DNA from: Allacma fusca
Taxonomy: Eukaryota; Arthropoda; Collembola; Symphypleona; Sminthuridae
Assembly: GCA_947179485.1 (NCBI GenBank)
Contig: OX359245.1
Location: 60,623,067 to 60,687,066 of the forward strand
DNA: 64,000 nucleotides
Direction of reading: 5' to 3'
Shown: piece after piece, positions 11,066 to 59,843 of the stretch
Layout: each line of letters starts with the position of its first letter
Position numbering within the stretch: position 1 is the stretch's first letter
Made by a program: the position numbers and the translations under genes
Notes under the pieces: model-generated
Databases searched by the model: none
What the model saw: the letters and a program-made list of their open reading frames with translations, nothing else
Told to the model about the DNA's origin: nothing

Positions 11066-11559
11066 TGTTAAGAATCTTGAAATTCCTAAAATCTTGTAAA
11101 ATTTAGTGTGTCCTTTTAGTGAACTGTTTGAATTGTATGATTAAAAACTTAGAGATGTTTTCAGATCAGAAGCCAATTTATTAGTGTTAGAAAAATACAT
11201 TAAAATTACATTGCAAAGAATCTATGGGATTTAACCTACTAAAAGATAACAGTACATTGAACCTAATTAGTGGGAAAAAAGTCCAGAAGAATTGGTTCAA
11301 TGGGAAAGAGAAATCCAAAAATAATAATGCGGGAAAATTTATGGATTAAAGGTCCTTGACCAGGAAAAAATACTAGAGTTAAAAAGAAATGGAAAGTAAA
11401 AATATGCAAATGGATGGATGTGCGTGGTCGCACTCATCCGCTTCACACAGGGAAAAGCTTAGCGGGAGAGCAACGAGAGGAAACCGCATTGTCCTCTCGA
11501 TCTCTCCAGTAATGACATATAATCACTTTTAATTACATATAATTATCTGGCTTTCATCA
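11066..11559 (-). mobile_element. 3' LTR of element A
   Basis: The LTR is 494 bp and runs TG to CA. Its edges are fixed by comparison with 59347-59838: both copies are colinear from TGTTAAGAATC to CTTTCATCA and diverge immediately outside. I count about six substitutions (clusters near 11340, 11411-11414, 11465 and 11518) and one 2-bp indel between the copies. On the sense strand an AATAAA lies at 11182-11177. Confidence 0.93.
11177..11182 (-). promoter_or_regulatory. Candidate polyadenylation signal AATAAA in the 3' LTR
   Basis: The sense strand reads CACTAATAAATTGG here, about 110 bp before the LTR end. The same hexamer is kept in the 5' LTR at 59458-59463. It is a plausible R-region poly(A) signal but unproven. 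Confidence 0.45.
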
Positions 11560-11616: not shown

Positions 11617-13158
11617 TCACATCATTTTCTTAATTAACGTAGTAAGACTGATCCACAGGGTGAATCCAATAAAAAATATAGCGGCGGAACCTATGATGCA
11701 ACGTATCATCCACTGGTACCAACCAAAACCGGTTAGCGATAGAAAGCTAAAACCCGAATTGTTGTCCAAGGGTTCATATGATACGGCCATATGATTCTCT
11801 CGTAGGTCTTGATTCGCGAGATACTGTAAATGTCCCTTAACCTGGAATTTTACAGTATTACGCGAGCATTTGAGTTCACAGGGTAGATCCACTTCAGGAG
11901 TGGAGAGTTTAACTGTGATATGCAGTTGTTGAGATTGTTGAGTGAGATGAACCGGAACAAAAAATCCAGCCGTGGGACATTCCAAACTAGCTAGATCTTC
12001 TCCGTGGTCCACCTTCGCTTCCAGGATCAAGACACTTCCGCTGATACAGCTGTAACAACCATTTATCATGATGAATTCTGCTGAGCATGTTGAGCTTTGG
12101 GCTACCTTTACCAGTCGATAGTCTTCTGTACTAATCTGTATTTCCAATAAGGTATTAGTTGAGCTCTCGAAGATAATATCTTCGCCATGTGATACCAGCA
12201 TTCCATCCATGAGCTTCAGCGGCAATGGTTTGGTTGACATGAGTTTAGCAGGGCTTACTAGTTCCGAAAGACACTTTATTCCGTTGGTGTCTGCTAATCC
12301 GCGGATGAGAGTCGCACTACCCATGCAGTTAAAATTCAGATCCTGAGCGTCCTTAATATTGTCACATTGCAATTCTCCTAGGCGCCCATTTGCTATTTCT
12401 CCTCGGTGATTGCACGGGGACAGGGCAAACTGCTTTCCACTAGAGATGACACATTCCTCCAGTATGGGGGTGGGTGGTTTGGACACAGATATCAGTGAGA
12501 ATTCAATTTTGTCCGTTTTTTTAGGGTAACCGGCCTCCGACCATATTACCTTCCTGGTAATTTGGTCACCCATATGAGTGGTAATCCTTAAATTAACCGA
12601 AAACACCCACTCAGGACAGTCATATACCATAAACGCTTGATTTGAGGGGTTCTCGAACCAAAGCCGATAGTAATTACAATCCTTCGCCCAAAACCACGGG
12701 CATCCAGGTTGTCTCATGTTTAAACACTGAGACCATCCTAAATGGGACATGGAGTTTTTAAACTCCTTCACTGTTCCGTTGGTATCAAAATCACGGCATT
12801 TGTAACCGTGACATTCCGCCTCTGAACTAAAACTGTAGCACTGAAATGAGCTATGACAGTTCACTACGGCTTGTGGTACGTAGTACAGGAGTTGTTTGAG
12901 GCACTTCAAATCTACCGATTTTATCTCTATTACTATGGTCCCTAGTAATTTATTATAGGTGTCTTCTATCCGGAAACACGATGATTGTCCTAATGGGCTT
13001 AGTGCTAACCGAGCATTCATACGGATAGAGCATGTGATTGTACCTTCTACATCACTACATTCCCTGGACGATACGGTCATTGCCGCAAAATTGGAGCAGC
13101 TAAAGCATGGCACAGGGATGAATACCAGGAGAAAGAACAACAAGTATGTTCCCGGTAG
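11617..13158 (-). CDS. Gc-like class II fusion glycoprotein part of the env polyprotein
   Basis: This covers residues about 1501-2013 of the long open frame. A hydrophobic internal signal (about 1502-1520, LPGTYLLFFLLVFIPVPCFS) is followed by a mature start at CSNFAAM. The ectodomain is about 460 residues with many paired-looking cysteines. It includes a Cys/Trp/aromatic cluster around 1641-1668 (GWSQCLNMRQPGCPWFWAKD) that fits the phlebovirus G2 (Gc) fusion family. A C-terminal membrane anchor (about 1981-2008) ends in a short KKMM tail. BEL/Pao elements with phlebovirus-type env genes are known from nematodes and other animals. The frame ends in a stop 57 bp before the LTR. Assignment to the Gc family rests on layout and cysteine pattern, since I could not run a profile search. 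Confidence 0.78.
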   Translation of the reverse strand, partial: LPGTYLLFFLLVFIPVPCFSCSNFAAMTVSSRECSDVEGTITCSIRMNARLALSPLGQSSCFRIEDTYNKLLGTIVIEIKSVDLKCLKQLLYYVPQAVVNCHSSFQCYSFSSEAECHGYKCRDFDTNGTVKEFKNSMSHLGWSQCLNMRQPGCPWFWAKDCNYYRLWFENPSNQAFMVYDCPEWVFSVNLRITTHMGDQITRKVIWSEAGYPKKTDKIEFSLISVSKPPTPILEECVISSGKQFALSPCNHRGEIANGRLGELQCDNIKDAQDLNFNCMGSATLIRGLADTNGIKCLSELVSPAKLMSTKPLPLKLMDGMLVSHGEDIIFESSTNTLLEIQISTEDYRLVKVAQSSTCSAEFIMINGCYSCISGSVLILEAKVDHGEDLASLECPTAGFFVPVHLTQQSQQLHITVKLSTPEVDLPCELKCSRNTVKFQVKGHLQYLANQDLRENHMAVSYEPLDNNSGFSFLSLTGFGWYQWMIRCIIGSAAIFFIGFTLWISLTTLIKKMM

Positions 13159-16100
13159 AAACGGTCCTTGATTCCGTCGTCGACGTTCAGCAATCCGTGG
13201 AGTTTCGTTGCGCACACTGACAGCCGTGGGCCGATATGGGTTCGGTGAATAATTTCCTAGTGGTATATCTTGATTACTATTTTCGGTATCTTCGTTGGCT
13301 ACACGGTGATACGTTGGTCGTCGACATCGAGTATAGTTGAATCGTAGGCAAATCCGGAACGGCCAACATATCCACCAAGTCACCCACATCATTATGCGAG
13401 AAATGTAGAGTAGGAATATTATCAAGATTGATAGTATTATTCCAGTAGTCAATATTACGATCCAATGTATAGTTGTATAACAACTAACATTACCGAATCT
13501 TTCAAGGCACAGGTAACACTTGATGAGTTCGCACACTGGGATGCGTGGGCAATTCACTTCCATAATTGTTGGTGAATCATAATTGGAGAACCATATTTCA
13601 ATGTGGATCAAACCTCCAACTGCTAGCATATTGTTGGTCAGGAAAATTTCGGTAGTGTACGTAGTCGGAACGGTAGCTACAAATCCAGGATTACGTAAAG
13701 CCTTTACGTATTTAGCAACCTTTTCTGGTGTGGTCACTTTAATCCCGCTTCTAGAGCATTCGATCTCACAATCCTGACAAGGATAGATGTCATCCGTTTT
13801 ACTGAGGTCTTCCTTTCGTGTTAACAAGTAAAGAAAACCCCAGCATTGAGGTGTTACCAAACCCTCTGGTGTGGTGATACGATGTATGTCGGTTGTAGAA
13901 TTGTATTTACACGTACAACTAGACTTATCTGCTTCCAAGTTGTCCGAAGTCTCATGAGGATGTTCGTCCTGATTTTCTGAGGAAGCAATCTCCTGATTTC
14001 GGTGAAGTGGTATTTTACCTTTAGTACATCCAAAGTTTGCGCAGAAAGCTTCATCACCTATACATTCTCCAAGCTCACACTTGAGCCCATCGCAGGCTCC
14101 TAGACAATCATAGGAATGTATGGATTGCAACTGAGGATCTTGTCGCACGTGAATAGATGATAGCGGGTATAGCTTGTTATACACAATTGCTACGGGAACG
14201 TCCTTGAATTCCTCCACAAAATGACGACAATGCTTCAAAGTAAAATCTCCAACGCCACAGAGTCTGGATCTAACTCCCGACCGTTCTAATAGTGACATGT
14301 CGGACGGAGTGACATGTGCCTGACATTGCAATGTTTCCAAATCCACTTCTTTCAGCATCGGGCAACCTTCTGCTTTCACACATCCCTTTGATTCCGAGTT
14401 GACCATAGTGTTGGTTGCACAAGCAAATTCTCTGGAACAAATGTGTCCGTCAGATTGCACATGTAGCCATCTGACTTTACTTGAGCATACAGGGACCTCG
14501 TGATGGTTCCTCCAGTCCATTTCGCAAGGGCTAATAGCAGTGCGTAGGTTCACTTGGGTTTCGTATTGTCCCAAAGCGCTACCAATTGTTAGAAAGATGA
14601 TGAACGTGGTGGTCAAACACGATAGATGCGTTTCAGTGCGTGTCCGATTTAACCGGAATCCACAGAATAATTCCTTATAAGCTTGACGGTAGTTTCTATT
14701 GCTTCCAACATAAATGAGGGTATTCAGACAGTTTGAGCTCCATGTCATTTCGGTGCTAATTATATGAAGTGTCGTCGGAAATTTCTCTCTGTCTGGGTCT
14801 ACAATCGTTAATATTATTATAGGCAAAAACGTTAGCAAGTAGCCTATGAATATAAGCACGATGGACTTCAGCAACTGATTGTCTCGCGTATGCATTCTTG
14901 TGGATTCTCCTGTGGTTCGTAAAGATGCCTTGATCTTCTGGACATAGATGTATATGGACGTGTAGCAGACCAGAATTGCAATAACCGGACATAGCACGCC
15001 TACGAGTGTGAGGAATTGTTTTGGTGAATTGCCATCTTCGTCCTTGCAGATGGTACATGACGGATGATGTCCTTTGCGTAGGTCAAACTTTCCCCACTTT
15101 TCTAGCAAGGGTGGTACTAATAGTCCGTAACTCGTTATCCATATTCCCATAATCATGCAAAAGGTCTTCGCTTTCGTGTATATGCGTGCATAGTAAGGAC
15201 TATACACAATACAAATTAAACGATTGATCGTTATCATCATGATAGTAAATAAAGAACAAGCCAAATTTCCATAAAGCAGGAAAGGAAATAGACGACAGAT
15301 CTGAGTCTCTTTCATCCAGTTCCCTCCCAAGTATCTAGCAGACTGGAGTGGTAGAGTGGTTATACTAAACAAGTAGTCTGATGTGCTCAGGTTAATCATA
15401 AACCCATTGGCAGTGTAATTCCGCAATAACCGTGATTTTAGTAAGGCTAATATGGTCGTGAGGTTCAGTATAAATCCCAAAACCGCTAGAAAGAGAGCGA
15501 AACCCGACAACGCGGGAATATGGGACCATTCCACTTGATCATCAGCACCTGTCCATGTATAATTGTGAGTTGTGCTGTTCGGGTCAGTTCCAGATACTGG
15601 ATGGAATGGGAATAATAGAGCGGTTGCCAGTAAACCCATAATCCATACAGACGGACTACTCCGGGACACCATCATGACTGTTTTGGGATGTTCAGTTTCC
15701 ATGGTATCCTTTTCTACGTTGGATTCATCAGTATCGTGAGGAACTTCAGGATTCCCATCGTAGGGTAACCTGACAAGTTTGGATATTGGTCGGATGAATT
15801 CCTTGCCTCCCGTTTCCACGGTGTTCACTCTAACGAGTCCATCCGCTCCAGGATGGGTTGTCTTAATCCTTCCAAATTTCCATTTTAGTGGAGGCTCGTT
15901 ATCCTCCATAACCAAGACCATTTCCCCAACGTTCACGTTGGGTTCTTCGAGGTTCCACTTATTTCGCTTCTGTAAATGTGTGAGATATTCCAATCTCCAT
16001 CGTTCCCAGAGATCTCTGGAACGACGTTGAACTAGCTCGAATTTGTTCAAGCGGTTTAGTTTGCAATGTGCCAAGTCATGCTCCGGTACCCAGAGTAACG

Positions 16101-17658
16101 AGGTACCGACCAAAAAATGTGCTGGTGTTAGCACATCAAGATCTTCCGGGTCTTCTGTGAGGGGGGTAAGAGGTCTCGAGTTAACGAGAGCCTCTGTGAA
16201 AACTAAAATAGTTTCCATTTCTTCCCAGTTGTAACTGTCCTGATTCAATATTCTGGCTAGGTAATGCTTGACCAATTTGACGCATGATTCCCACACACCT
16301 CCCTGATGAGGAGCTCGTGGTGGGTTAAAATGCCAACAAATGGTGGTGAGGTCCAATCCTGGTAAGATTCCATCTTGGGCCTGTTGCAATTCCTGAAGCG
16401 TTCGAGTCGTGGATTGGAGATAATTGTCGGCTCCAACGAAGTTTAACCCATTATCTGAGTACATGTCAGAGGGCCGTCCTCTCCTGGACATGAACCGTCT
16501 TAGGGCTAAAAGGAAACCTTCGTAACTCATGGAACTAACCAGCTCCAAGTGTATTGCCCTGGAAGTAAAGCATGTGAAAAGGCAAATCCAAACCTTTATC
16601 TTTGTAGCCTTATTACCACTGAAATTCTTGATCATGTAAGGGCCGGCGAAGTCCACCCCCGTATGAAGGAAACAGCGCGCTTGTTTAACTCGGCTAGTGG
16701 GTAACGGTGCCATCAGTTGTTCCATAGGCTTGGCTCGGAAGTGCAGACATAGGATGCATTTGTGGATTGCACTTTTGATGGCACGTGCTCCTCCGACAAT
16801 CCAATATGTCTGTCGAATATGGTTGTGAACGGTTGTGTGCCCTGCATGGGCTAAGTGTCGGTGCCAATAGAGGATCATGGATTTCACTACCGGGCTATGA
16901 CCTGGCAACAGCAGTGGATGCTTCTGGTGGAACGAAAGATCGCTATTATGCAGTCGTCCTCCCACACACAGAATAGAATTGGTGTCTCTAAATATATTTA
17001 GGACTCGTAATTGGCGATCCTGCTGAAATTTGCCTTCCTGAAAGTGGACGTCTTGAAGTAACTTAACTAAAATCATCTCACTAGTCTCCAATTCCGTGTG
17101 TGTTGGTAGACCATCCCACTTTACCTTGAAACTCTTACAAGTCTTGACACGAGAAAGTATCGCCATGGTGCGCCTTATCAGCATCCATGATGATAATCGC
17201 TCCAGAGAATGGCATATAGAGGGAAAAGACCCCTTGGCTTGAACGGCAACAACCGACGGCGTTGGTTTTTCTTCTCCCGTTGTTTTGGTAGTGGCCACGA
17301 AATCGGGAATATCGTAATTTTCTTGCAACAGCCAGGGCGGACCATGCCACCATAGTTCATGCTTTGGTAGTTCTTGTGGATTGATGCCACGAGAAGCACA
17401 GTCAGCAGGGTTGTCCTCACTCTTGACATGATGCCACTGTGATGCCTCTGATTTGTCATGAATTTGTTGTATGCGATTCGCTACATAGATTTTCCATCTA
17501 TTTGGTACGGAATGTATCCAGTGTAAAGTCACCATGGAATCCGACCAAAGGTACGTGGCTTTAATGGGAATGCCCCATGTTACCTTGACATGGTTAACCA
17601 ACTCGCTTAATAGAACTGCTCCTTGCAGTTCCAATCGTGGGAGTGTCAAAACCTTCAA
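11617..17658 (-). CDS. 6-kb uninterrupted frame: RNase H-integrase-GPCR-Gn-Gc
   Basis: The frame holds 2013 codons without a stop, ending at TGA/TAA-side position 11617. It encodes, in order, three modules normally made separately: pol end, a seven-span receptor and a two-glycoprotein env. Signal-like segments sit before the receptor (671-690), before Gn (1010-1030) and before Gc (1502-1520), so signal peptidase could separate the parts. The sense sequence CCCAAAACAG lies just before the ATG pair at 15675 and is a possible splice acceptor for an env mRNA, though its pyrimidine tract is poor. Upstream pol is broken at 17650-17660 by a frameshift, so this frame is no longer joined to RT. Confidence 0.9.
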   Translation of the reverse strand: MKVLTLPRLELQGAVLLSELVNHVKVTWGIPIKATYLWSDSMVTLHWIHSVPNRWKIYVANRIQQIHDKSEASQWHHVKSEDNPADCASRGINPQELPKHELWWHGPPWLLQENYDIPDFVATTKTTGEEKPTPSVVAVQAKGSFPSICHSLERLSSWMLIRRTMAILSRVKTCKSFKVKWDGLPTHTELETSEMILVKLLQDVHFQEGKFQQDRQLRVLNIFRDTNSILCVGGRLHNSDLSFHQKHPLLLPGHSPVVKSMILYWHRHLAHAGHTTVHNHIRQTYWIVGGARAIKSAIHKCILCLHFRAKPMEQLMAPLPTSRVKQARCFLHTGVDFAGPYMIKNFSGNKATKIKVWICLFTCFTSRAIHLELVSSMSYEGFLLALRRFMSRRGRPSDMYSDNGLNFVGADNYLQSTTRTLQELQQAQDGILPGLDLTTICWHFNPPRAPHQGGVWESCVKLVKHYLARILNQDSYNWEEMETILVFTEALVNSRPLTPLTEDPEDLDVLTPAHFLVGTSLLWVPEHDLAHCKLNRLNKFELVQRRSRDLWERWRLEYLTHLQKRNKWNLEEPNVNVGEMVLVMEDNEPPLKWKFGRIKTTHPGADGLVRVNTVETGGKEFIRPISKLVRLPYDGNPEVPHDTDESNVEKDTMETEHPKTVMMVSRSSPSVWIMGLLATALLFPFHPVSGTDPNSTTHNYTWTGADDQVEWSHIPALSGFALFLAVLGFILNLTTILALLKSRLLRNYTANGFMINLSTSDYLFSITTLPLQSARYLGGNWMKETQICRLFPFLLYGNLACSLFTIMMITINRLICIVYSPYYARIYTKAKTFCMIMGIWITSYGLLVPPLLEKWGKFDLRKGHHPSCTICKDEDGNSPKQFLTLVGVLCPVIAILVCYTSIYIYVQKIKASLRTTGESTRMHTRDNQLLKSIVLIFIGYLLTFLPIIILTIVDPDREKFPTTLHIISTEMTWSSNCLNTLIYVGSNRNYRQAYKELFCGFRLNRTRTETHLSCLTTTFIIFLTIGSALGQYETQVNLRTAISPCEMDWRNHHEVPVCSSKVRWLHVQSDGHICSREFACATNTMVNSESKGCVKAEGCPMLKEVDLETLQCQAHVTPSDMSLLERSGVRSRLCGVGDFTLKHCRHFVEEFKDVPVAIVYNKLYPLSSIHVRQDPQLQSIHSYDCLGACDGLKCELGECIGDEAFCANFGCTKGKIPLHRNQEIASSENQDEHPHETSDNLEADKSSCTCKYNSTTDIHRITTPEGLVTPQCWGFLYLLTRKEDLSKTDDIYPCQDCEIECSRSGIKVTTPEKVAKYVKALRNPGFVATVPTTYTTEIFLTNNMLAVGGLIHIEIWFSNYDSPTIMEVNCPRIPVCELIKCYLCLERFGNVSCYTTIHWIVILTTGIILSILIIFLLYISRIMMWVTWWICWPFRICLRFNYTRCRRPTYHRVANEDTENSNQDIPLGNYSPNPYRPTAVSVRNETPRIAERRRRNQGPFLPGTYLLFFLLVFIPVPCFSCSNFAAMTVSSRECSDVEGTITCSIRMNARLALSPLGQSSCFRIEDTYNKLLGTIVIEIKSVDLKCLKQLLYYVPQAVVNCHSSFQCYSFSSEAECHGYKCRDFDTNGTVKEFKNSMSHLGWSQCLNMRQPGCPWFWAKDCNYYRLWFENPSNQAFMVYDCPEWVFSVNLRITTHMGDQITRKVIWSEAGYPKKTDKIEFSLISVSKPPTPILEECVISSGKQFALSPCNHRGEIANGRLGELQCDNIKDAQDLNFNCMGSATLIRGLADTNGIKCLSELVSPAKLMSTKPLPLKLMDGMLVSHGEDIIFESSTNTLLEIQISTEDYRLVKVAQSSTCSAEFIMINGCYSCISGSVLILEAKVDHGEDLASLECPTAGFFVPVHLTQQSQQLHITVKLSTPEVDLPCELKCSRNTVKFQVKGHLQYLANQDLRENHMAVSYEPLDNNSGFSFLSLTGFGWYQWMIRCIIGSAAIFFIGFTLWISLTTLIKKMM
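13159..14634 (-). CDS. Gn-like attachment glycoprotein part of the env polyprotein
   Basis: This covers residues about 1009-1500 of the long frame. A signal-like hydrophobic stretch (about 1010-1030, ending TIGSALG) opens a cysteine-rich ectodomain (about 1031-1390). The domain has two CxxC-type clusters, an acidic hydrophilic insert near 1220-1245 and few glycosylation sites. A long hydrophobic segment follows (about 1396-1432, IILSILIIFLLYIS), then a basic cytoplasmic tail with RCRRPTY and ERRRRN. The tail leads straight into the Gc signal. Ectodomain, membrane span, tail and internal signal match the precursor layout of bunyavirus M segments. I infer a Gn equivalent from position. Sequence similarity to a named family is not obvious by eye. 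Confidence 0.6.
14635..15675 (-). CDS. Captured rhodopsin-class GPCR (Tre1/moody type) in the env position
   Basis: This covers residues about 662-1008 of the long frame. An ATG pair (15675) precedes a signal-like segment (671-690) and an N-terminus with NST and NYT sites. Seven hydrophobic spans follow at about 715-739, 750-772, 785-815, 831-852, 880-905, 928-952 and 962-984. Class A landmarks are present: Asn732 in TM1, NLSTSD with Asp761 in TM2, Cys788 at the top of TM3, INR (812-813) where most receptors have DRY, Trp840 in TM4, Pro891 in TM5, Pro946 in TM6, and NTLIY (979-983) as an NPxxY variant. SNRNYRQAYKELF forms helix 8. The NR motif, PYYARIY in loop 2 and the helix 8 sequence resemble Tre1/moody receptors. 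No stop or frameshift interrupts it. I infer capture of a host receptor cDNA. Its ligand is unknown. Confidence 0.87.
15676..17658 (-). CDS. pol: Pol C-terminal part: RNase H, integrase and DUF5641-type tail
   Basis: These are the first 661 codons of the long frame. The nominal first codon is TTG; the real protein is the continuation of pol. RNase H-type sequence occupies about 1-110 (LPRLELQGAVLLSEL, YLWSDSMVTLHWI, NPADCASRG). The integrase zinc-binding motif uses His268/His271 and Cys301/Cys304. The catalytic triad is Asp336 (GVDFAGP), Asp402 (SDNGLNF) and Glu457 (GGVWE). The DUF5641-like tail follows at about 530-632 (TPAHFLVG at 511, VGEMVLV, WKFGRI, RPISKLVRLP). All visible catalytic residues are present. 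Integrase cuts target DNA and joins the LTR ends. Unusually, there is no stop before the receptor, so pol and env share one frame. Confidence 0.92.
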
Positions 17659-18539
17659 GGGTTTTAGCGATTATAAGGTTTGACACTACCTGGTTATTCC
17701 GGACGCCACGTAAATAGATCGCAGCAGAATACGCCTTTTCACTCGCATCCGAGAATCCATGTAGCTCCCAGTCTTGACACTCCGGGGTATACTGCAAATA
17801 TCTGGGAATCCGTATCCCCTCCAAACTTGGAAGATTGGAGGCGTATTCCATCCATTTGGACATAATGTCGTCTGGTAGCTTCTCGTCCCAGTCCATACTT
17901 CTGGTCCAGATGTCTTGCATAATAATTTTTGCCTTTATGATCGTTGGGGATAGCCATCCCAATGGGTCATAAATTTTTGAAATGTCTGACAGTAGTGTTC
18001 GTTTGGTATGTTGGCGATTGAGTTCAAAATTTAAAGTGAACTGGAACAAATCTGTAGCCGGGTTCCACTTAAGACCCAGTGTTTTGATGGTGGAAGATTC
18101 ATCGATGTCCAGTGGTACCTTTGTTTCCCGCATTTCAGGGGGTAGGCTTGCTAAAACTTCTTCCGAGTTCGAGCTCCATTTCCTCAACGAGAACTTGGCG
18201 GTTGCTAGTAATTCAACTAGTTCCTTGATCAGTTTAATAGCCTCGGTTGGATTGAAGACTTTTCATGAAGTCGTCCATGTAAAAGTTACGTAACACTGCA
18301 TCCGCAGCGTAAGGGAACTTCTTAGCGTTGTCCTTCGCCAGTTTCAGTATTGTGAGGATCGCCAAGCAATTTTTGGTTCACGATCATCGCCAATTTGGCG
18401 ATGATCGTGAACCAAAAATTGCTATCATTGTTTTCCAAAACTTGACAGGTTCAGTTGGGTGCTCCCTCCACAATGTAATGAAATACATTGCATCAGTAGG
18501 GTGTACCCTAACGAATCGAAACATCTTCTCTATATCAGC
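17594..18539 (-). pseudogene. pol: Reverse transcriptase C-terminal part and RT-RNase H linker, broken
   Basis: The sense strand after the stop at 18540-18542 continues with ADIEKMF, then LWREHP and FGSRSSP. An inverted duplication (18365-18423) then adds two in-frame stops. After it come LAILTILKLAKDNAKK and the catalytic NFYMDDF box (about 18265-18285). A frameshift near 18250 moves the frame before NPTEAIKLIKEL. The 198-codon frame 17594-18187 (from a TTG) covers RKWSSNSEEVLASLP, DPLGWLSPTIIKAKI and WELHGFSDASEKAYSAAIY of the Pao-type domain. A further deletion/frameshift at about 17650-17660 separates it from the integrase frame. All the expected blocks are there in order, but the protein cannot be made. 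Confidence 0.85.
18365..18423. repeat. Perfect 59-bp palindrome in RT (29-bp arms, 1-base centre)
   Basis: The left arm is 18365-18393, the centre base 18394 and the right arm 18395-18423; every arm base pairs. The left and outer sequence is normal RT coding sequence on the sense strand (GSRSSP on one side, LAILT on the other). About 30 extra bases are an inverted copy of their neighbour and bring in two TGA stops. The short native inverted pair ATCGCCA/TTGGCGAT at this spot would allow a nascent strand to fold back and copy itself. Confidence 0.93.
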
Positions 18540-20459
18540 TTAAACCGCAATGGGTCCTAGTCGAAATAACAACAGATGATCCAACAATGGTGTTTGTATG
18601 GTCGGTCCCGGTAGTAGTATGTCATTCAAGGAGATGCCGTTAGATGTTTTCGCGGATGCATCAAAAACAACTCGCACCTTGGTCGATGTGCTATCTTCCT
18701 TGAACACGGCATGATGCGGTACGCAATAGTGTTGACCGGGATATTTATTTAATTCCGATTCTGTAATTGGAATCATCTGGCCTAGCTCCACGTATTCTTT
18801 GAGCTGACCGACATAGGACTTCATCAGGTCAGGATCCTTCATTAACCTTCGTTCGACGGCTATCCATCTTCTCATAGCCATTTGTTTCGAATCACCTAAT
18901 GGGCGACGATTTTCCACGAACGGAAGTCTGACTTGGTATTGTCCATTTGGCAGGCGGATGGTGTTTGCTTCGTAGTGGTCCAAAACATTTTGCTCTTCCC
19001 TCGTCAAGTGTGGATTGGAGGTGGGAAGTTCTTCGATAGTCCAAAACTTCTCCATGGTATGTTCCAACGGTGGGTTGGAACCATAGATAGCCATAACTGA
19101 TCTGGGACCTGTTGCTTTCACACTTCCCATAACAATCCATCCCAGATCGGTATAGTAGGCGTTTGGCGAACCTCTGTGGCCAATGCGTGCCTTACGGTCA
19201 CGCATGATGCGAGCCACCACGGTGACTCCTAAAAGAATGTCAATTTTCGCTGGCTTATTATAGAACATGTCCGCTAGTTCTATATTTTTTAGGTGGTCAA
19301 ACGTGGAAATGTTGATCTCCTGGTGTGGCAATTCCGAGGTGATGGTATCCAGAATGTAAGCTTGGATCTTGAATGATTCGCTACTATCCCAGGTTGATTG
19401 CACCCGGAACGTAGTCCTTCCTAAAGTGTTGAGGCCCTGTCCTCCAGCCGCTACAAACCCTTCTGTGACCCTTGTGCGGGGTAGTCGTAACTTCTTCACC
19501 AATTCGTTGGTCACAAAATTCTCTTGTGCACCAGTGTCTAATAGACATCTTGCTTCCGTAGGGGCGATCCGATTGGGAATAATGACCGATGCTGTAGGTA
19601 ATAGACCTGTATGTTCGTTGGAGCCATACTGGTGGAGAACTATATTAATGTTCTTAGTAGCCTTCGACTCCATACCTTCTGAATGTAGTAGGGTGTGATG
19701 CCGTTTACGGCAGACAAAGCAAGTCCACTCTACGGCACAATCACTTACTTGGTGAGTCCCGAGGCAATTATAGCACCTTTTGTTCGTCCTGACCCAATCT
19801 CGTCGCTGATGAACACTCATGCTACCGAACGTACCACATTTACTTATGCGGTGATCCAGGCTGCCACAGTAACTACATGGCCTGGGCTTAAACGTCGGTT
19901 TGGGCCTGGCCTTTGAGTGTCCAGATTCCCCTGAGGAGCTCCGATTCCTAGTTTTTGCTCCTTTGGCCTTGGTAGCGACGTGCACTGATTTTTTCAGTAT
20001 TGAGGGTGATTTAGATCTGTTTCGGTTGCGTGATCTAATCACTGTTTTTCGAAAACGGACCTGTTTGCGGGAATCATCTGCGCTGTATCCCGCTTCGCTA
20101 TCGGTAGTTACCACAAGGGCCTTGGCTTCCTTATGATCCCTTCCAGTCTTGTTTCTGGAAGGGGCAGCGGCAGCACTATTTGATTTGATTTCCTTCGTCA
20201 AACCTACATTTTTGGCCTGCATCTCTAGAAAGTCGATGCAGGTTTGTAGGGATGGGACATCGTTTGTTGTCAATGTCTGATTGAATTCCTTTATGGTTTT
20301 GGTATCCAATCTCGCCATTATGAAGTGTAAGTAAAGCACATCTGCTTCACTCACACTCCCTAAGTTAACTTGCTGAAGCTGTGCCTTTGTAGTACGAATC
20401 GTACTTATGAGCTTATGTAGACCAGACTCACTCTGGCTCATAAGAGGCGGAAGTTCCAA
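18540..20459 (-). pseudogene. gag-pol: Gag C-terminal part, zinc knuckles, aspartic protease and RT N-terminal part
   Basis: The open stretch is 639 codons; its nominal start is TTG, in the same frame as gag. It begins with the second half of the capsid-like DUF1759 region (about 1-90), then a basic Ser/Arg-rich linker (about 130-190). Zinc-knuckle-like motifs follow: CSYCGSLDHRISKC (195-208), CYNCLGTHQVSDC (229-241) and CFVCRKRHHTLLH. A retropepsin-like protease (DUF1758 type) has catalytic DTG at 308-310 (CLLDTGAQENFV) and ILLG near 408. RT begins at about 500 with LPNGQYQVRLPF and continues through PHHAVFKEDS and VRVVFDAS. The frame ends in an in-frame TAA at 18540-18542, just before the RT ADIEKM block. 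Neighbouring stops make this one broken polyprotein. Confidence 0.88.
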
Positions 20460-20501
20460 CAGCGGGCGAATCGCTGCGTGGACGGTTTCCCTAGGGGAAT
20501 C

Positions 20502-22445
20502 TTAACGACCTTCCATCCGACCCCACGCTATGACCCAATTGCCATCCGTGACTGTAAGGTCGGATATATTTTCCTTAGCTTCTCCCTCGGAGAGAGCCTC
20601 GATAAGGAGTCGCATCCGTTCCGTGGAAGAATAAGTGGGGTTGTTCCTAACAAGAGTGTTAAATTCACTCTTGAAGGTAGGCCAATCCCTATGTAGTCCA
20701 CTAAATTTGGGGACTGCTATCTTCGGTGTCTTGAGCCTAGTTCCAGTCACACTGGTGCTCAATGACTTTGCAATGTCTATCATCTTTGACAAGACACGAT
20801 GATGGTTTAACTTCAGCTTGGTTTGGGTATTAATTGCTTGGTACCGAGGATTCTGGTCCAAGTCGACAGAAGTATCATCCGCGTAATGTAAATAACATCC
20901 GACTGACAATTCTTCTAACTTCGGATGCATTCTTTCCATTTCCTTTACGTAGATGTCAGCTGACGTAGCCGATATCAATTTAGAATTATCCAAATGATCG
21001 TGCGCAACTGATTCTATGTCTCGAATGCGGTCTTGGAGAGCCTGGTGTTGACCCACATGGGCTGCTTGTGCTGCCATGATTTCGTCCGCTTGACTTCCGT
21101 CACCCGATGTAAAATTCGGTGGTGGAGGAGGGTTGGGTGGAGGTGTATTGCCTTCTCGGCCACCTCCTTGGCTACCTCCTGAGTTACTTCCTTGATCCTC
21201 TCCTGACTGATCTCCGGGGTCACCTCCTTGTTCGCCGCCTTCAGAGGAATTCGGGACTTCTGGGGCGGGGTCCGATGCTGGATCGTCGTCTGACGATTCC
21301 GAAGGGGATGATTCTGGGTCACCTGGTTCCCCTGCGGTTGTTGTAAAAGTGCTGGACTTATGCTTTGATAGTCTCTTTGTTTTTGAAGGGCTGGTGGATT
21401 CCCCTTCCGAGCCGGGGTCTGTTTCCGCGGCTGTGGTCTCACCTGGGGAGGATAAATGCTCTCTATCCGATAGTGTGTAGGAGTAATATCCTTTCACCAC
21501 ACTACCGATTCCACTATCCAATACTTGTTGAATTTGTTTTTGCTCTTCCTTTTCCACTAACTCATCTGTTTCGGGATCAAAAAACAACGTTTGATCACCT
21601 TCAACGAGTGAGTGGAACTCAGTAAAGGAGACTGAACTTGAGGCAGGTTCTTTGGATGCTTCCTCTCGGTCAACTGTAGGTTTCTCCCCGGATATCCGTT
21701 GGTATTCTAAATAGAGATTGAGTGTCTCTACGAATACGGGGTAATCTTCGTCTACTACTGTTTCAGCAAGTTTTTCCAAAACTGCCTTTTGAAACCTTCG
21801 AAAAATAAACTGAAGATCACTTTCGTTTAGAGGAATTCCCAAATTAAAATTCTTTGGTAATTCTATGGAGTATTTAGTAGGGGACTCATTATGGAACACA
21901 AAATTCCTCCTTTTCCTTAAAGAGGATTCCAAACTTTCTTGCAACACTTGGGGAGAACGTCCGCTAATTGGGTTTGCGGAGCGTAGTCGAGAGGAAATCG
22001 CAGCAAATTGTGCGGATTTCCTCCTTGGTTGCTCGCCCTTTTGGCCTGAAGATTTCAGAGAGGAGAGGTCACTAGCCTCTCTTCGTCTCTGCACCTCGTC
22101 CACTAACCACTCTAGGTGATTAGTGCAGCCGTGACTATTAAGATAGGAAACAATAAGTTTTTCTAACTTCCTTAAGTTTTCATAATCCTTAAGGTTTGTT
22201 TCCTTGTTAGCAAGCTCTTGACCCCATAGACATTTATAATACTGGTCCTTCCAGTAGTCTAGGGTGTAGCTTTCAGGAAATATGGTTCCTGTTTTTCTAT
22301 TTTTTGTTCCCGGTACTTTGCAATCTGGGTTACGGTACTTCCGTAACTCAAATGCAAACATACATGCAATATAATACCACCATTTCAAGGTGGTCAGTGC
22401 ATGAAACTTAGGCTTCTGTTTCGTCCGGGTTAAGATTTCCAGCAC
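20502..22445 (-). CDS. gag: Gag polyprotein N-terminal part (DUF1759 capsid-like)
   Basis: The open stretch is 647 codons. It opens after a TAG with non-ATG codons (nominal GTG). The first ATG is near residue 29 (MFAFEL), although the KPKFHALTTLKWW block before it is also conserved in copy B. Residues 1-130 are hydrophobic and basic. About 270-380 is acidic, and about 380-445 is a Gly/Ser/Pro low-complexity tract ending in PPPPP. About 500-647 carries the DUF1759 signature (VPKFSGLHRDWPTFKSEF). A TAA at 20502-20504 cuts the domain in mid-fold. The frame is unchanged and resumes at once (DSPRETVHAAI), so this is a nonsense substitution and not a frameshift site. Read-through is possible but the position is unusual for it. 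Confidence 0.85.
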   Translation of the reverse strand: MLEILTRTKQKPKFHALTTLKWWYYIACMFAFELRKYRNPDCKVPGTKNRKTGTIFPESYTLDYWKDQYYKCLWGQELANKETNLKDYENLRKLEKLIVSYLNSHGCTNHLEWLVDEVQRRREASDLSSLKSSGQKGEQPRRKSAQFAAISSRLRSANPISGRSPQVLQESLESSLRKRRNFVFHNESPTKYSIELPKNFNLGIPLNESDLQFIFRRFQKAVLEKLAETVVDEDYPVFVETLNLYLEYQRISGEKPTVDREEASKEPASSSVSFTEFHSLVEGDQTLFFDPETDELVEKEEQKQIQQVLDSGIGSVVKGYYSYTLSDREHLSSPGETTAAETDPGSEGESTSPSKTKRLSKHKSSTFTTTAGEPGDPESSPSESSDDDPASDPAPEVPNSSEGGEQGGDPGDQSGEDQGSNSGGSQGGGREGNTPPPNPPPPPNFTSGDGSQADEIMAAQAAHVGQHQALQDRIRDIESVAHDHLDNSKLISATSADIYVKEMERMHPKLEELSVGCYLHYADDTSVDLDQNPRYQAINTQTKLKLNHHRVLSKMIDIAKSLSTSVTGTRLKTPKIAVPKFSGLHRDWPTFKSEFNTLVRNNPTYSSTERMRLLIEALSEGEAKENISDLTVTDGNWVIAWGRMEGR

Positions 22446-22896
22446 CAGTAGCTACCCCCAATACCCGCTGGACGAGCAGTGCCAATCGTGCTGACTCACC
22501 CAGTAAGACCACCGAGTGAGCAACACTGCTCTTCCCTCGTAGGTCTGGGTATCAGCAGGAGGGGTTTTGCTGAGGGATGCGGCTGTGCGTGGGGTGCTAT
22601 CGCGTTATGCTTGCTGCCCAAATATGATTGTGTATGCCAAGTTATCTCTTCTTGGTGTCCGGGATGACTTGATGGTGTTATGGTATAAATACTGTAGAAC
22701 CGTAAGGTTGTACCTTGTGAATGTTGAGGTATTTCCGCCTTTGGCTGGTTTCTCCAATGGGAATTATACCTACCTTTGTAGTCTTTTACCCGCTGGCGCG
22801 GTGCCCTGGGGAACAGCAGAAACGGAACCAAAACCGGAGGCAGCAAGTCCGAGGAAGAAGACTCGTGGCCAAAAAACCGATGCAAAACACACGATA
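22446..22896 (-). other. Gag-proximal leader of element A
   Basis: About 450 bp lies between the satellite and gag. It is partly conserved in copy B (61370-61790), including CGCTGGCGCGGTGCCC and the block around CCAGTAAGACCACCGAGTGAGCAA. A 129-codon minus-strand frame (22496-22885) is not kept in copy B in a coherent way, so I treat the stretch as untranslated. It may hold packaging signals, since such signals usually sit between primer site and gag. I cannot point to one. Confidence 0.6.
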
Positions 22897-25800
22897 AATT
22901 GTGAGGTACAAAACAAAGTTATTTGGAAAAAGTTGTACCAAAATTTTGGAGAGAACTGCACAAAAAATTGTTAGACACAAAAGATCTAAAGTTATTTGGA
23001 AAAATTTGTACCAAAATTTTGGAGAGAACTGCACAAAAAATTGTTAGGCACAAAAGAGCTTAAAGTTATTTGGAAAAAGTTGTACCAAAATTTTGGAGAG
23101 AACTGCACAAAAAATTGTTAGGCACAAAAGAGCTCAAAGTTATTTGGAAACATTTGTACCAAAATTTTGGAGAGAACTGCACAAAAAATTGTTAGGCACA
23201 AAAGAGCTTAAAGTTATTTGGAAAAATTTGTACCAATATTTTGGAGAGAACTGCACAAAAAATTGTTAGGCACAAAAGAGCTCAAAGTTATTTGGAAAAA
23301 TTTGTACCAAAATTTTGGAGAGAACTGCACAAAAAATTGTTAGGCACAAAAGAGCTCAAAGTTATTTGGAAAAATTTGTACCAAAATTTTGGAGAGAACT
23401 GCACAAAAAATTGTTAGGCACAAAAGAGCTCAAAGTTATTTGGAAAAATTTGTACCAATATTTTGGAGAGAACTGCACAAAAAATTGTAAGGCACAAAAG
23501 AGCTAAAAGTTATTTGGAAAAAATTGTACCAAAATTTTGGAGAGAACTGCACAAAAAATTGGTAGGCACAAAAGAGCTCAAAGTTATTTGGAAAAATTTG
23601 TACCAAAATTTTGGAGAGAACTGCACAAAAAATTGTTAGGCACAAAAGAGCTCAAAGTTATTTGGAAAAATTTGTACCAATATTTTGGAGAGAACTGCAC
23701 AAAAAATTGTTAGGCACAAAAGAGCTCAAAGTTATTTGGAAAAATTTGTACCAATATTTTGGAGAGAACTGCACAAAAAATTGTAAGGCACAAAAGAGCT
23801 CAAAGTTATTTGGAAAAAGTTGTACCAATATTTTGGAGAGAACTGCACAAAAAATTGTTAGGCACAAAAGAGCTCAAAGTTATTTGGAAAAAGTTGTACC
23901 AAAATTTTGGAGAGAACTGCACAAAAAATTGTTAGGCACAAAAGAGCTCAAAGTTATTTGGAAAAAGTTGTACCAAAATTTTGGAGAGAACTGCACAAAA
24001 AATTGTTAGGCACAAAAGAGCTCAAAGTTATTTGGAAAAATTTGTACCAATATTTTGGAGAGAACTGCACAAAAAATTGTTAGGCACAAAAGAGCTCAAA
24101 GTTATTTGGAAAAATTTGTACCAAAATTTTGGAGAGAACTGCACAAAAAATTGTAAGGCACAAAAGAGCTCAAAGTTATTTGGAAAAAGTTGTACCAAAA
24201 TTTTGGAGAGAACTGCACAAAAAATTGTTAGGCACAAAAGAGCTCAAAGTTATTTGGAAAAATTTGTACCAATATTTTGGAGAGAACTGCACCAAAAATT
24301 GTTAGGCACAAAAGAGCTCAAAGTTATTTGGAAAAATTTGTACCAATATTTTGGAGAGAACTGCACAAAAAATTGTTAGGCACAAAAGAGCTCAAAGTTA
24401 TTTGGAAAAAGTTGTACCAAAATTTTGGAGAGAACTGCACAAAAAATTGTTAGGCACAAAAGAGCTCAAAGTTATTTGTAAAAAGTTGTACCAAAATTTT
24501 GGAGAGAACTGCACAAAAAATTGTTAGGCACAAAAGAGCTCAAAGTTATTTGGAAACATTTGTACAAAAATTTTGGAGAGAACTGCACAAAAAATTGTTA
24601 GGCACAAAAGAGCTCAAAGTTATTTGGAAACATTTGTACCAAAATTTTGGAGAGAACTGCACAAAAAATTGTTAGGCACAAAAGAGCTTAAAGTTATTTG
24701 GAAAAATTTGTACCAATATTTTGGAAAGAACTGCACAAAAAATTGTTAGGCACAAAAGAGCTCAAAGTTATTTGGAAAAATTTGTACCAATATTTTGGAG
24801 AGAACTGCACAAAAAATTGTTAGGCACAAAAGAGCTCAAAGTTATTTGGAAAAATTTGTACCAAAATTTTGGAGAGAACTGCACAAAAAATTGTTAGGCA
24901 CAAAAGAGCTCAAAGTTATTTGGAAAAATTTGTACCAATATTTTGGAGAGAACTGCACAAAAAATTGTTAGGCACAAAAGAGCTCAAAGTTATTTGGAAA
25001 AATTTGTACCAAAATTTTGGAGAGAACTGCACAAAAAATTGTAAGGCACAAAAGAGCTCAAAGTTATTTTGAAAAAGTTGTACCAAAATTTTGGAGAGAA
25101 CTGCACAAAAAATTGTTAGGCACAAAAGAGCTCAAAGTTATTTGGAAACATTTGTACAAAAATTTTGGAGAGAACTGCACAAAAAATTGTTGGGCACAAA
25201 AGAGCTCAAAGTTATTTGGAAACATTTGTACCAAAATTTTGGAGAGAACTGCACAAAAAATTGTTAGGCACAAAAGAGCTTAAAGTTATTTGGAAAAATT
25301 TGTACCAATATTTTGGAAAGAACTGCACAAAAAATTGTTAGGCACAAAAGAGCTCAAAGTTATTTGGAAAAATTTGTACCAATATTTTGGAGAGAACTGC
25401 ACAAAAAATTGTTAGGCACAAAAGAGCTCAAAGTTATTTGGAAAAATTTGTACCAATATTTTGGAAAGAACTGCACAAAAAATTGTTAGGCACAAAAGAG
25501 CTCAAAGTTATTTGGAAAAATTTGTACCAATATTTTGGAGAGAACTGCACAAAAAATTGTTAGGCACAAAAGAGCTCAAAGTTATTTGGAAAAATTTGTA
25601 CCAAAATTTTGGAGAGAACTGCACAAAAAATTGTTAGGCACAAAAGAGCTCAAAGTTATTTGGAAAAATTTGTACCAATATTTTGGAGAGAACTGCACAA
25701 AAAATTGTTAGGCACAAAAGAGCTCAAAGTTATTTGGAAAAATTTGTACCAAAATTTTGGAGAGAACTGCACAAAAAATTGTAAGGCACAAAAGAGCTCA

Positions 25801-28439
25801 AAGTTATTTTGAAAAAGTTGTACCAAAATTTTGGAGAGAACTGCACAAAAAATTGTTAGGCACAAAAGAGCTCAAAGTTATATGGAAAAATTTGTACCAA
25901 TATTTTGGAGAGAACTGCACCAAAAATTGTTAGGCACAAAAGAGCTCAAAGTTATTTGGAAAAATTTGTACCAATATTTTGGAGAGAACTGCACAAAAAA
26001 TTGTTAGGCACAAAAGAGCTCAAAGTTATTTGGAAAAATTTGTACCAAAATTTTGGAGAGAACTGCACAAAAAATTGTAAGGCACAAAAGAGCTCAAAGT
26101 TATTTTGAAAAAGTTGTACCAAAATTTTGGAGAGAACTGCACAAAAAATTGTTAGGCACAAAAGAGCTCAAAGTTATATGGAAAAATTTGTACCAATATT
26201 TTGGAGAGAACTGCACCAAAAATTGTTAGGCACAAAAGAGCTCAAAGTTATTTGGAAAAATTTGTACCAATATTTTGGAGAGAACTGCACAAAAAATTGT
26301 TAGGCACAAAAGAGCTCAAAGTTATTTGGAAAAATTTGTACCAAAATTTTGGAGAGAACTGCACAAAAAATTGTAAGGCACAAAAGAGCTCAAAGTTATT
26401 TGGAAAAATTTGTACCAAAATTTTAGAGAGAACTGCACAAAAAATTGTTAGGCACAAAAGAGCTCAAAGTTATTTGGAAAAATTTGTACCAATATTTTGG
26501 AGAGAACTGCACAAAAAATTGTTAGGCACAAAAGAGCTCAAAGTTATTTGGAAAAATTTGTACCAATATTTTGGAGAGAACTGCACAAAAAATTGTTAGG
26601 CACAAAAGAGCTCAAAGTTATTTGGAAAAAGTTGTACCAAAATTTTGGAGAGAACTGCACAAAAAATTGTTAGGCACAAAAGAGCTCAAAGTTATTTGGA
26701 AAAAGTTGTACCAAAATTTTGGATAGAACTGCACAAAAAATTGTTAGGCACAAAAGAGCTCAAAGTTATTTGGAAACATTTGTACCAAAATTTTGGAGAG
26801 AACTGCACAAAAAATTGTTAGGCACAAAAGAGCTCAAAGTTATTTGGAAACATTTGTACCAAAATTTTGGAGAGAACTGCACAAAAAATTGTTAGGCACA
26901 AAAGAGCTCAAAGTTATTTGGAAAAATTTGTACCAAAATTTTGGAGAGAACTGCACAAAAAATTGTTAGGCACAAAAGAGCTCAAAGATATTTGGAAAAA
27001 ATTGTACCAAAATTTTGGAGAGAACTGCACAAAAAATTGTTAGGCACAAAAGAGCTCAAAGTTATTTGGAAAAATTTGTACCAAAATTTTGGAGAGAACT
27101 GCACAAAAAATTGTTAGGCACAAAAGAGCTCAAAGTTATTTGGAAAAATTTGTACCAAAATTTTGGAGAGAACTGCACAAAAAATTGTTAGGCACAAAAG
27201 AGCTCAAAGTTATTTGGAAAAATTTGTACCAAAATTTTGGAGAGAACTGCACAAAAAATTGTTAGGCACAAAAGAGCTCAAAGTTATTTGGAAAAATTTG
27301 TACCAATATTTTGGAGAGAACTGCACAAAAAATTGTTAGGCACAAAAGAGCTCAAAGTTATTTGGAAAAAGTTGTACCAAAATTTTGGAGAGAACTGCAC
27401 AAAAAATTGTTAGGCACAAAAGAGCTCAAAGTTATTTGGAAACATTTGTACCAAAATTTTGGAGAGAACTGCACAAAAAATTGTTAGGCACATAAGAGCT
27501 CAAAGTTATTTGGAAAAATTTGTACCAATATTTTGGAGAGAACTGCACAAAAAATTGTTAGGCACAAAAGAGCTCAAAGTTATTTGGAAAAAGTTGTACC
27601 AAAATTCTGGAGAGAACTGCACAAAAAATTGTTAGGCACAAAAGAGCTCAAAGTTATTTGGAAAAATTTGTACCAATATTTTGGAGAGAACTGCACAAAA
27701 CATTGTTAGGCACAAAAGAGCTCAAAGTTATTTGGAAAAATTTGTACCAATATTTTGGAGAGAACTGCACAAAAAATTGTTAGGCACAAAAGAGCTCAAA
27801 GTTATTTGGAAAAATTTGTACCAAAATTTTGGAGAGAACTGCACAAAAAATTGTTAGGCACAAAAGAGCTCAAAGTTATTTGGAAAAATTTGTACCAAAA
27901 TTTTGGAGAGAACTGCACAAAAAATTGTTAGGCACAAAAGAGCTCAAAGTTATTTGGAAAACGTTGTACCAAAATTTTGGAGAGAACTGCACAAAAAATT
28001 GTTAGGCACAAAAGAGCTCAAAGTTATTTGGAAAAATTTGTACCAAAATTTTGGAGAGAACTGCACAAAAAAATTGTTAGGCACAAAAGAGCTCAAAGTT
28101 ATTTGGAAACATTTGTACCAAAATTTTGGAGAGAACTGCACAAAAAATTGTTAGGCACAAAAGAGCTCAAAGTTATTTGGAAAAATTTGTACCAAAATTT
28201 TGGAGACAACTGCACAAAAAATTGTTAGGCACAAAAGAGCTCAAAGATATTTGGAAAAAGTTGTACCAAAATTTTGGAGAGAACTGCACAAAAAATTGTT
28301 AGGCACAAAAGAGCTCAAAGTTATTTGGAAAAATTTGTACCAAAATTTTGGAGAGAACTGCACAAAAAATTGTTAGGCACAAAAGAGCTCAAAGTTATTT
28401 GGAAAAATTTGTACCAAAATTTTGGAGAGAACTGCACAA

Positions 28440-31400: not shown

Positions 31401-32220
31401 AAATTGTTAGGCACAAAAGAGTTTAAAGTTATTTGGAAAAATTTGTACCAAAATTTTGGAGAGAACTGCACAAAAAATTGTTAGGCACAAAACAGTTTAA
31501 AGTTATTTGGAAACATTTGTACCAAAATTTTGGAGAGAACTGCACAAAAAATTGTTAGGCACAAAAGAGCTCAAAGTTATTTGGAAAAAGTTGTACCAAA
31601 ATTTTGGAGAGAACTGCACAAAAAATTGTTAGGCACAAAAGAGCTCAAAGTTATTTGGAAAAAGTTGTACCAATATTTTGGAGAGAACTGCACAAAAAAT
31701 TGTTAGGCACAAAAGAGCTCAAAGTTATTTGGAAAAATTTGTACCAATATTTTGGAGAGAACTGCACAAAAAATTGTTAGGCACAAAAGAGCTCAAAGTT
31801 ATTTGGAAAAATTTGTACCAAAATTTTGGAGAGAACTGCACAAAAAATTGTTAGGCACAAAAGAGCTCAAAGTTATTTGGAAAAAGTTGTACCAAAATTT
31901 TGGAGAGAACTGCACAAAAAATTGTAAGGCACAAAAGAGCTCAAAGTTATTTGGAAAAAGTTGTACCAAAATTTTGGAGAGAACTGCACAAAAGATTGTT
32001 AGGCACAAAAGAGCTCAAGGTTATTTGGAAAAAGTTGTACCAACATTTTGGAGAGAACTGCACAAAAAATTGTTAGGCACAAAAGAGCTCAAAGTTATTT
32101 GGAAAAAGTTGTACCAATATTTTGGAGAGAACTGCACAAAAAATTGTTAGGCACAAGAGAGCTCAAAGTTATTTGGAAAAATTTGTACCAATATTTTGGA
32201 GAGAACTGCACAAAAAATTG
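28440..32220. repeat. Higher-order duplication inside the satellite, offset 2,220 bp (30 units)
   Basis: A block of about 1.5 kb starting near 28440 recurs near 30660. Rare variants fall exactly 2,220 bp apart: GAGAGGACTGC (28650 and 30870), GCTCACAGTT (28684 and 30904), CACAAAGGAGC (28823 and 31043), GAGTTTAAAG (29201 and 31421) and CCAACATTTTGG (29822 and 32042). Some positions differ afterwards, so the copies have started to diverge. Confidence 0.85.
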
Positions 32221-58950: not shown

Positions 58951-59239
58951 ATTTGGAAAAATTTGTACCAATATTTTGGAGAGAACTGCACAAAAAATTG
59001 TTAGGCACAAAAGAGCTCAAAGTTATTTGGAAAAATTTGTACCAAAATTTTGGAGAGAACTGCACAAAAAATTGTTAGGCACAAAAGAGCTCAAAGTTAT
59101 TTGGAAAAATTTGTACCAAAATTTTGGAGAGAACTGCACAAAAAATTGTTAGGCACAAAATAGCTCAAAGTTATTTGGAAAAATTTGTACCAAAATTTTG
59201 GAGAGAACTGCACAAAAAATTGTAAAAATTTGGTACCAA

Positions 59240-59838: not shown

Positions 59839-59843
59839 ATATT
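59839..59843. repeat. 5-bp target-site duplication of element A (right)
   Basis: ATATT is identical to 11061-11065. The pol sequence of copy B continues at once with CAGGTCTCTTAATTG. Confidence 0.93.

Follow-up and report, generated by a model that had tools for sequence, protein, structure and literature searches.

Herpesviruses and poxviruses keep host-derived class A G-protein-coupled receptors (GPCRs), which they carry as separate genes in DNA viruses, and to our knowledge viral capture of GPCRs is confined to large DNA viruses. Among reverse-transcribing elements, Atlas virus from the hookworm Ancylostoma ceylanicum is described as an endogenous belpaovirus with a phlebovirus-like Gn-Gc, a 2828-amino-acid Gag-Pol-Env frame and identical long terminal repeats (LTRs) (PMC9094657). 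Studies of the receptor Tre1 report that it guides primordial germ cells, is located at the front of migrating germ cells and organises actin there (PMC12752509), and that its arginine R3.50 is critical in fly germ-cell migration (PMC3848830). Among the papers listed in searches of the open-licence PMC literature, we found no LTR retroelement or retrovirus with a GPCR. Here we describe such an element in a 64,000-nucleotide stretch of the collembolan Allacma fusca (contig OX359245.1, positions 60,623,067 to 60,687,066; hereafter the window, numbered from its first letter). On the minus strand, 14635-15675 encodes a class A GPCR, which follows a BEL/Pao integrase and precedes Gn and Gc glycoproteins of phlebovirus type.

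A class A receptor in frame with integrase and envelope

A single open reading frame of 2017 amino acids (11617-17670, minus strand) spans the integrase, the receptor and the Gn-Gc envelope, and Pfam matches within it run in the order integrase, GPCR, Phlebovirus_G1, Phlebovirus_G2. The receptor gives a full match of 252 residues to 7tm_1 (E 8.7e-38; bit score 130.7, cut-off 30.5). The integrase part matches DUF5641 at E 4.4e-21, with Integrase_H2C2 slightly under its cut-off, and downstream of the receptor lie Phlebovirus_G1 (PF07243, E 3e-15), Phlebovirus_G2 (PF07245, E 9.2e-63) and Phlebo_G2_C (PF19019, E 1.6e-7). Melatonin receptor 1A and GPR84 are the closest solved structures to the receptor; for Gc, Atlas virus Gc (PDB 7a4a) is the best of 11 solved matches (E 7.8e-42), and phenuivirus Gc also matched.

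A hydropathy scan (threshold 1.5) flagged five of the seven spans in the window receptor and six of seven in the host Tre1-like row described below; for the count of seven we therefore depend on the 7tm_1 match and on the alignment. A structure model from two sequences predicts seven long helices and a short one after them, at low confidence (mean pLDDT 48).

An earlier note on this DNA, written from its letters, had proposed a seven-span class A receptor in frame between integrase and a two-part glycoprotein, with signal-like segments on both sides, and the Pfam matches bear this architecture out. The upstream segment was recovered by hydropathy and is followed by N-x-S/T sites at P0001 residues 88 and 93; the downstream one was seen by eye (Table 1). 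The note had also placed the receptor in the env position. That stands as far as its location between integrase and Gn is concerned, but the receptor precedes a complete Gn-Gc and therefore adds to env and does not replace it. A chance hydrophobic stretch is ruled out by the E-values and by dozens of copies with the same order.

Receptor-bearing copies fall into five families

All findings rest on one genome, searched over 392.7 Mb in 91 contigs. In a six-frame receptor search the best 100 of 134 candidates were scored, and receptor counts are lower bounds. The search gave at least 95 receptor matches, some of them host receptors or fragments. Identity to the window copy, together with the receptor tree, sorts the element receptors into families F1 (80-100% identical to the window receptor), F2 (63-65%, with two decayed pieces at 47 and 55%), F3 (about 42%), F4 (34-39%) and F5 (about 34%). 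Of the 95 matches, 18 contain no stop and lie within open frames of 2017-3651 amino acids, the two longest frames being 3651 and 3573; one of the 18 (C12:45485274) is without a Gc match downstream. The receptor frame is broken in all F2 copies seen.

A genome search with Phlebovirus_G2 yielded 67 matches, 38 of them full length. For comparison with these we used 71 of the 95 receptor rows, having set aside 24 beforehand as host-receptor loci or as low-scoring or overlapping fragments. For 53 of the 67 Gc matches a receptor match on the same strand lies within 4.5 kb upstream. The absence of a receptor from all other copies, which the note had named as a refuting outcome, did not occur: at 36 of the 38 full-length Gc loci a match lies 1.27-2.57 kb upstream on the same strand, although at some only a piece is present, and at C1:76980461 and C1:77961411 only the last 60-70 receptor residues are left. 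Fifteen of the 71 receptor rows have no downstream Gc match. In Pfam scans of the receptor flanks, a second F1 copy and F3, F4 and F5 all showed integrase/DUF5641 ahead of the receptor and G1 behind it, with G2 also in F5, and intron-less relatives between integrase and Gn, which the note had suggested seeking, are present in all four families checked (F1, F3, F4 and F5).

One of the two exceptions among the full-length Gc loci belongs to F4 and has been interrupted by another retroelement (RVT_1 E 3.1e-35; by eye of the long interspersed nuclear element type); 19 residues of its receptor tail remain, 94.7% identical. The other is a receptor-less family, F6, of which one copy was seen (L078, L079; C8:21.53 Mb). 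F6 has no G1 or 7tm_1 match and much of its Gn is missing; by eye, a signal-like segment and two hydrophobic stretches occupy the receptor site. In a small Gc tree with a very long outgroup branch F6 groups with F1 (95/97), and an integrase tree did not resolve its placement. Because of the grouping with F1, the absence of the receptor from F6 more likely reflects loss. Fourteen Gc rows have no receptor close by; the upstream check covered seven of them (six loci), using a query set without F5 receptors, and the remaining four of the six loci are truncated, rearranged or interrupted copies.

At one of these four loci (C9:33698695-33733812) a receptor match lies 33 kb upstream of the Gc match (C9:33733051) on the same strand; the pair is perhaps one copy split by a large insertion. 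A one-off or an assembly artefact is ruled out, with copies on many contigs and target duplications in three of the four copies examined for LTRs.

The receptor derives from the Tre1/moody group

Among 5.77 billion proteins, in a search that reaches only relatives sharing exact words, the sole match to the receptor was Tre1 of Teleopsis dalmanni (38% identity over 78% of the query). The host genome has a Tre1-like gene (L061), found in pieces with 61, 48 and 34% identity to Teleopsis Tre1, and a second gene related to Tre1/moody, likewise in pieces, which we take to be moody-like. A GT-AG intron interrupts the host Tre1-like gene within the arginine codon of its NRY motif, and in the alignment the element receptors read straight through this position. 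The absence of the host intron from the elements indicates that they acquired the receptor as spliced mRNA transcribed from a Tre1-like gene.

Our receptor tree comprised 22 rows: 14 element receptors, the host Tre1-like and moody-like genes, Teleopsis Tre1 and five other host receptors (the four of these that were Pfam-scanned all match 7tm_1). The 14 element receptors form one clade (93/99), and they group with the host Tre1-like, host moody-like and Teleopsis Tre1 rows at 100/100 against the five other host receptors. The tree, another check raised in the note, thus puts the receptor among class A GPCRs and within the Tre1/moody group. Since the position of the receptor and its flanks are the same in the families checked, a single capture is the simplest reading. 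In searches whose reach is fairly close relatives, we found no relative of Gn-Gc in the protein database, none of a receptor-Gn alignment among 7,995 candidates, and no match among viral contigs.

Fold landmarks are kept and some signalling positions vary

We aligned 12 complete element rows with the host gene and assigned residue positions (for example R3.50) on that alignment. All 12 element rows retain R3.50, both disulfide cysteines (in the third transmembrane span, TM3, and in loop 2), D2.50, W4.50 and P6.50. The TM3 motif reads NRY in F3 and F4, NRL in F1 and F2, and NRT in F5. P7.50 of NPxxY is absent from all 12 rows and from the host Tre1-like gene, which has N-L-I-I-Y in place of N-P-x-x-Y. 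By these motifs the element receptor is a derivative of the Tre1/moody group and not a Tre1 ortholog.

A W-I-containing segment stands ahead of the receptor in F1-F5 and is signal-like by hydropathy in F1, F3 and F5, and all seven element rows scanned have N-glycosylation sequons before the first span. The receptor tail is short and is followed by a hydrophobic segment before Gn, found in the same place in F3, F4 and F5. By eye, 13 copies from five families showed no convincing conserved splice acceptor ahead of the receptor.

Purifying selection and recent insertion

We estimated the ratio of nonsynonymous to synonymous divergence (dN/dS) in 20 of the first 30 loci, the others being disrupted or F2; for the flanks, five (integrase) and six (Gn) of the 20 were excluded for stops. 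Receptor dN/dS was 0.067 (L012-L013), 0.111 (L016-L027) and 0.163 (L001-L003), and the reported pairs lie at 0.07-0.32 except for the closest. In young F4 copies the corresponding pN/pS was 0.170 for the receptor and 0.155 for integrase (n=11 set), and 0.353 for Gn (7 copies left). At 10 of 14 F4 loci we counted 28 synonymous and 22 nonsynonymous receptor changes, where a nonsynonymous share of 0.749 would be expected (p 3.3e-6); of the shared changes, 15 were synonymous and 4 nonsynonymous. In the F4 flanks, synonymous and nonsynonymous changes numbered 45 and 30 for integrase (p 3.6e-10) and 13 and 20 for Gn in seven copies (p 0.048). These comparisons across copies, which the earlier note had also suggested, indicate that the receptor is under purifying selection in F1, F3 and F4. 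In the F1 pair L001-L003, receptor synonymous divergence (0.39) is far under that of the integrase and Gn flanks, which are saturated; this points to exchange, and a receptor stretch seems to have passed between subfamilies.

One F3 copy has a 432-bp LTR pair (TG..CA, 0 mismatches) with the duplication GTAGC, and one F5 copy has LTRs of about 449 bp (450 aligned; TG..TA, 0 mismatches) with the duplication TCGCA; both have open frames of more than 3,500 amino acids. Identical LTRs, 5-bp duplications and open frames mean that these F3 and F5 copies inserted very recently. The elements thereby show one feature of an infectious endogenous retrovirus, recent copies whose open frames include env. 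The flanking DNA examined for one F4 copy contained no LTR pair.

Organisation of the window element

Table 1. Features of the element in the window
Feature	Position	Strand	Basis
3' LTR, 494 bp, TG...CA	11066..11559	-	alignment to 5' LTR
Gc-like class II fusion glycoprotein	11617..13098	-	PF07245, PF19019; best PDB match 7a4a
Gn-like glycoprotein, minimum extent	13384..14568	-	Phlebovirus_G1 match 13384-13932
Signal-like segment between short receptor tail and Gn	14569..14622 (approx.)	-	by eye in translation
Class A GPCR core, seven spans and helix 8	14662..15513	-	7tm_1 match ~14710-15465; alignment of families and host Tre1-like gene
Signal-peptide-like segment ahead of receptor	15595..15651 (approx.)	-	hydropathy and sequon scan
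Integrase (zinc-binding H2C2; DUF5641) plus the end of the Pao peptidase region, sharing one frame with receptor and envelope	15841..17670	-	Pfam
Pao retrotransposon Peptidase_A17 region	17594..18262	-	E 2.8e-38
Gag end plus aspartic protease region; interruptions in the frames of the window copy	18540..20501	-	gag-asp_proteas E 2.3e-4, under cut-off
Gag-like frame	20502..22451	-	DUF1759 E 1.1e-4, under cut-off
74-bp tandem array, 490.8 units, ~36 kb	22914..59223	-	Tandem Repeats Finder
5' LTR	59347..59838	-	alignment to 3' LTR

The LTRs of the window copy are identical at 487 of 494 aligned positions (5 substitutions, 2 gap positions), and the element is bounded by the 5-bp target duplication AATAT (59839-59843 and 11061-11065). 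Its assignment to BEL/Pao draws on Peptidase_A17 and the DUF5641 integrase in the window, on integrase and DUF5641 in F1, F3, F4 and F5, and on LTRs with short duplications. The window protein pieces gave no Pfam match to RVT, and an Rfam scan of the window gave no match.

The 74-bp array sits inside the LTR element, in the interval from 5' LTR to gag and 123 bp past the LTR, and its units are near-identical; a leader repeat of the retroelement may have expanded into a satellite array. The whole element is nested in an older, diverged BEL/Pao pol fragment (10464-11065 and 59839-60409; 86.6% and 75% identity to its own pol). Elsewhere in the window, a 219-bp unit is present in three perfect tandem copies (8126-8788).

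Proposed function and alternatives

On balance we think it probable, from sequence and from analogy with Tre1, that a belpaovirus lineage captured a Tre1-like receptor and kept it in its env module, where it would signal in the producing cell toward germ-line access. An ancestor in this lineage of endogenous BEL/Pao retroviruses, with a phlebovirus-type Gn-Gc envelope, would have inserted a spliced Tre1-like receptor mRNA between integrase and Gn; the missing intron, the tree placement and the fixed position all argue for this step. Near-constant presence, purifying selection in three families and recent open-frame copies suggest that the receptor was then retained as a working part of the module. 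It would most likely be made within the polyprotein or from a spliced env mRNA, and signal peptidase would free it at the two signal-like segments, so that a seven-transmembrane (7TM) protein would appear at the producing cell's surface. There the receptor, its tail shortened, would probably signal via the arginine that it has retained. If Tre1 is a guide, the polarity, migration or adhesion of infected somatic, blood or germ cells could be altered, and the element could in this way reach the gonad. We hold signalling in the producing cell to be the most likely role, ahead of a co-envelope role, because the arginine is critical in fly Tre1 and Tre1 lies at the front of migrating germ cells. 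The wider proposal, that a reverse-transcribing virus lineage encodes a receptor of the germ-cell-guidance type in its envelope cassette and steers producing cells or itself to the gonad, we offer tentatively.

Several observations weigh against this explanation of capture and signalling. In F5, one copy of which has identical LTRs, the residues N1.50, Y3.51 and Y7.53 have been lost, and five F5 copies differ by 7 synonymous and 14 nonsynonymous changes, one of them a stop (p 0.27), a count without significant constraint but compatible with it; given these losses and counts, signalling may be dispensable in F5, and it is chiefly the F5 residue changes that speak against a general need for signalling. 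NRY has become NRL in F1 and F2, and the segment ahead of the F4 receptor falls under the hydropathy threshold of 1.5 and is not clearly signal-like. The closest pair tested, L001-L002, has a dN/dS of 0.42. F6 is without a receptor yet groups with F1, so the receptor is not indispensable. In the tree, which holds one Tre1 from another species, support for the host Tre1-like gene as the nearest row is weak (71/82).

The F5 pattern, in which fold landmarks are kept and several signalling positions lost, would fit a receptor that acts as a third envelope component: it would sit in the particle with Gn-Gc, bind a ligand on or near target cells and so aim the particle, with no signalling in the producing cell. 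The receptor shares a frame with Gn-Gc, has its own signal-like segment in F1, F3 and F5 and bears sequons in the seven rows scanned, and its position is like that of the accessory proteins that precede Gn in bunyavirus M polyproteins. Retention of R3.50 in every complete row speaks against such a role, we know of no earlier case of a particle that requires a host 7TM receptor, and we regard such a role as unlikely. Preserved disulfide cysteines and other fold landmarks, with some microswitch positions differing between families, could also mean that in the producing cell the receptor serves as a sink for ligand, as an interference factor or as a partner in the folding of Gn-Gc, without signalling of its own. 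This seems to us quite improbable: in young F4 copies constraint on the receptor (pN/pS 0.170) is about that on integrase (0.155) and stronger than that on Gn (0.353), and the arginine critical for Tre1 function is invariant among the 12 complete rows.

There is very little to be said for a mere passenger, a host gene captured and carried by chance. LTR elements with captured extra open reading frames are described (PMC5408684) and F6 manages without the receptor, but the receptor has been kept through five families with dN/dS of 0.07-0.32 for all but one reported pair and an F4 p of 3.3e-6, so that the selection tests contradict this explanation for F1, F3 and F4, though not for F5. As to origin, a phlebovirus-like RNA virus may itself have made the capture, the BEL/Pao element then acquiring a ready receptor-Gn-Gc cassette. 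The receptor is joined to Gn, and belpaovirus Gn-Gc is described as being itself of phenuivirus type (PMC9094657). We judge this route very unlikely, given that the best solved Gc match is the Atlas belpaovirus Gc, ahead of phenuiviruses, that Atlas Env consists, according to the same source, of Gn and Gc in tandem and nothing else, and that no viral contig matched in searches reaching fairly close relatives.

That selection has kept a receptor through several families of an endogenous retrovirus with recent activity is relevant to how invertebrate retroviruses enter the germ line. F1-F5 form a natural set of receptor variants, with signalling positions changed under another selective regime. 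Single-gene assays could test the germ-line idea directly, since in flies the cellular relative of the receptor guides germ cells (PMC12752509) and, reportedly, blood cells (PMC6122984). If signalling in the producing cell does serve germ-line access, this would be a retroelement that colonises the germ line with the help of a chemotactic receptor of its own.

Comparison with known systems

The element receptors resemble insect Tre1/moody receptors in their tree group (100/100), in the N-R at TM3 and in lacking the NPxxY proline, which the host Tre1-like gene lacks as well. They differ in being intron-less, in an added N-terminal segment, in a short tail that runs into the Gn signal segment, in their place within a retroelement frame, and in having NRL (F1, F2) or NRT (F5) instead of NRY. 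As in herpesviruses and poxviruses, a host-derived class A receptor has been kept by a virus; here, however, the carrier is a reverse-transcribing element and the receptor is in frame with pol and env.

LTR retrotransposons of bdelloid rotifers likewise have an extra open reading frame behind pol, but theirs are described as env-like or as encoding a GDSL esterase or a DEDDy exonuclease (PMC5408684), and "GPCR" has 0 occurrences in the main text of that paper. Atlas virus and other Belpaoviridae, as described, are the most alike in layout, sharing the BEL/Pao pol, the phlebovirus-type Gn-Gc, copies with identical LTRs and a very long frame. YVDN is reported for Atlas virus and its kin (PMC9094657), whereas an F1-like copy (L081) has YMDD, which we took by eye as the reverse transcriptase site. 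Where the Env of Atlas virus is in that description Gn-Gc only, here a class A GPCR stands between integrase and Gn.
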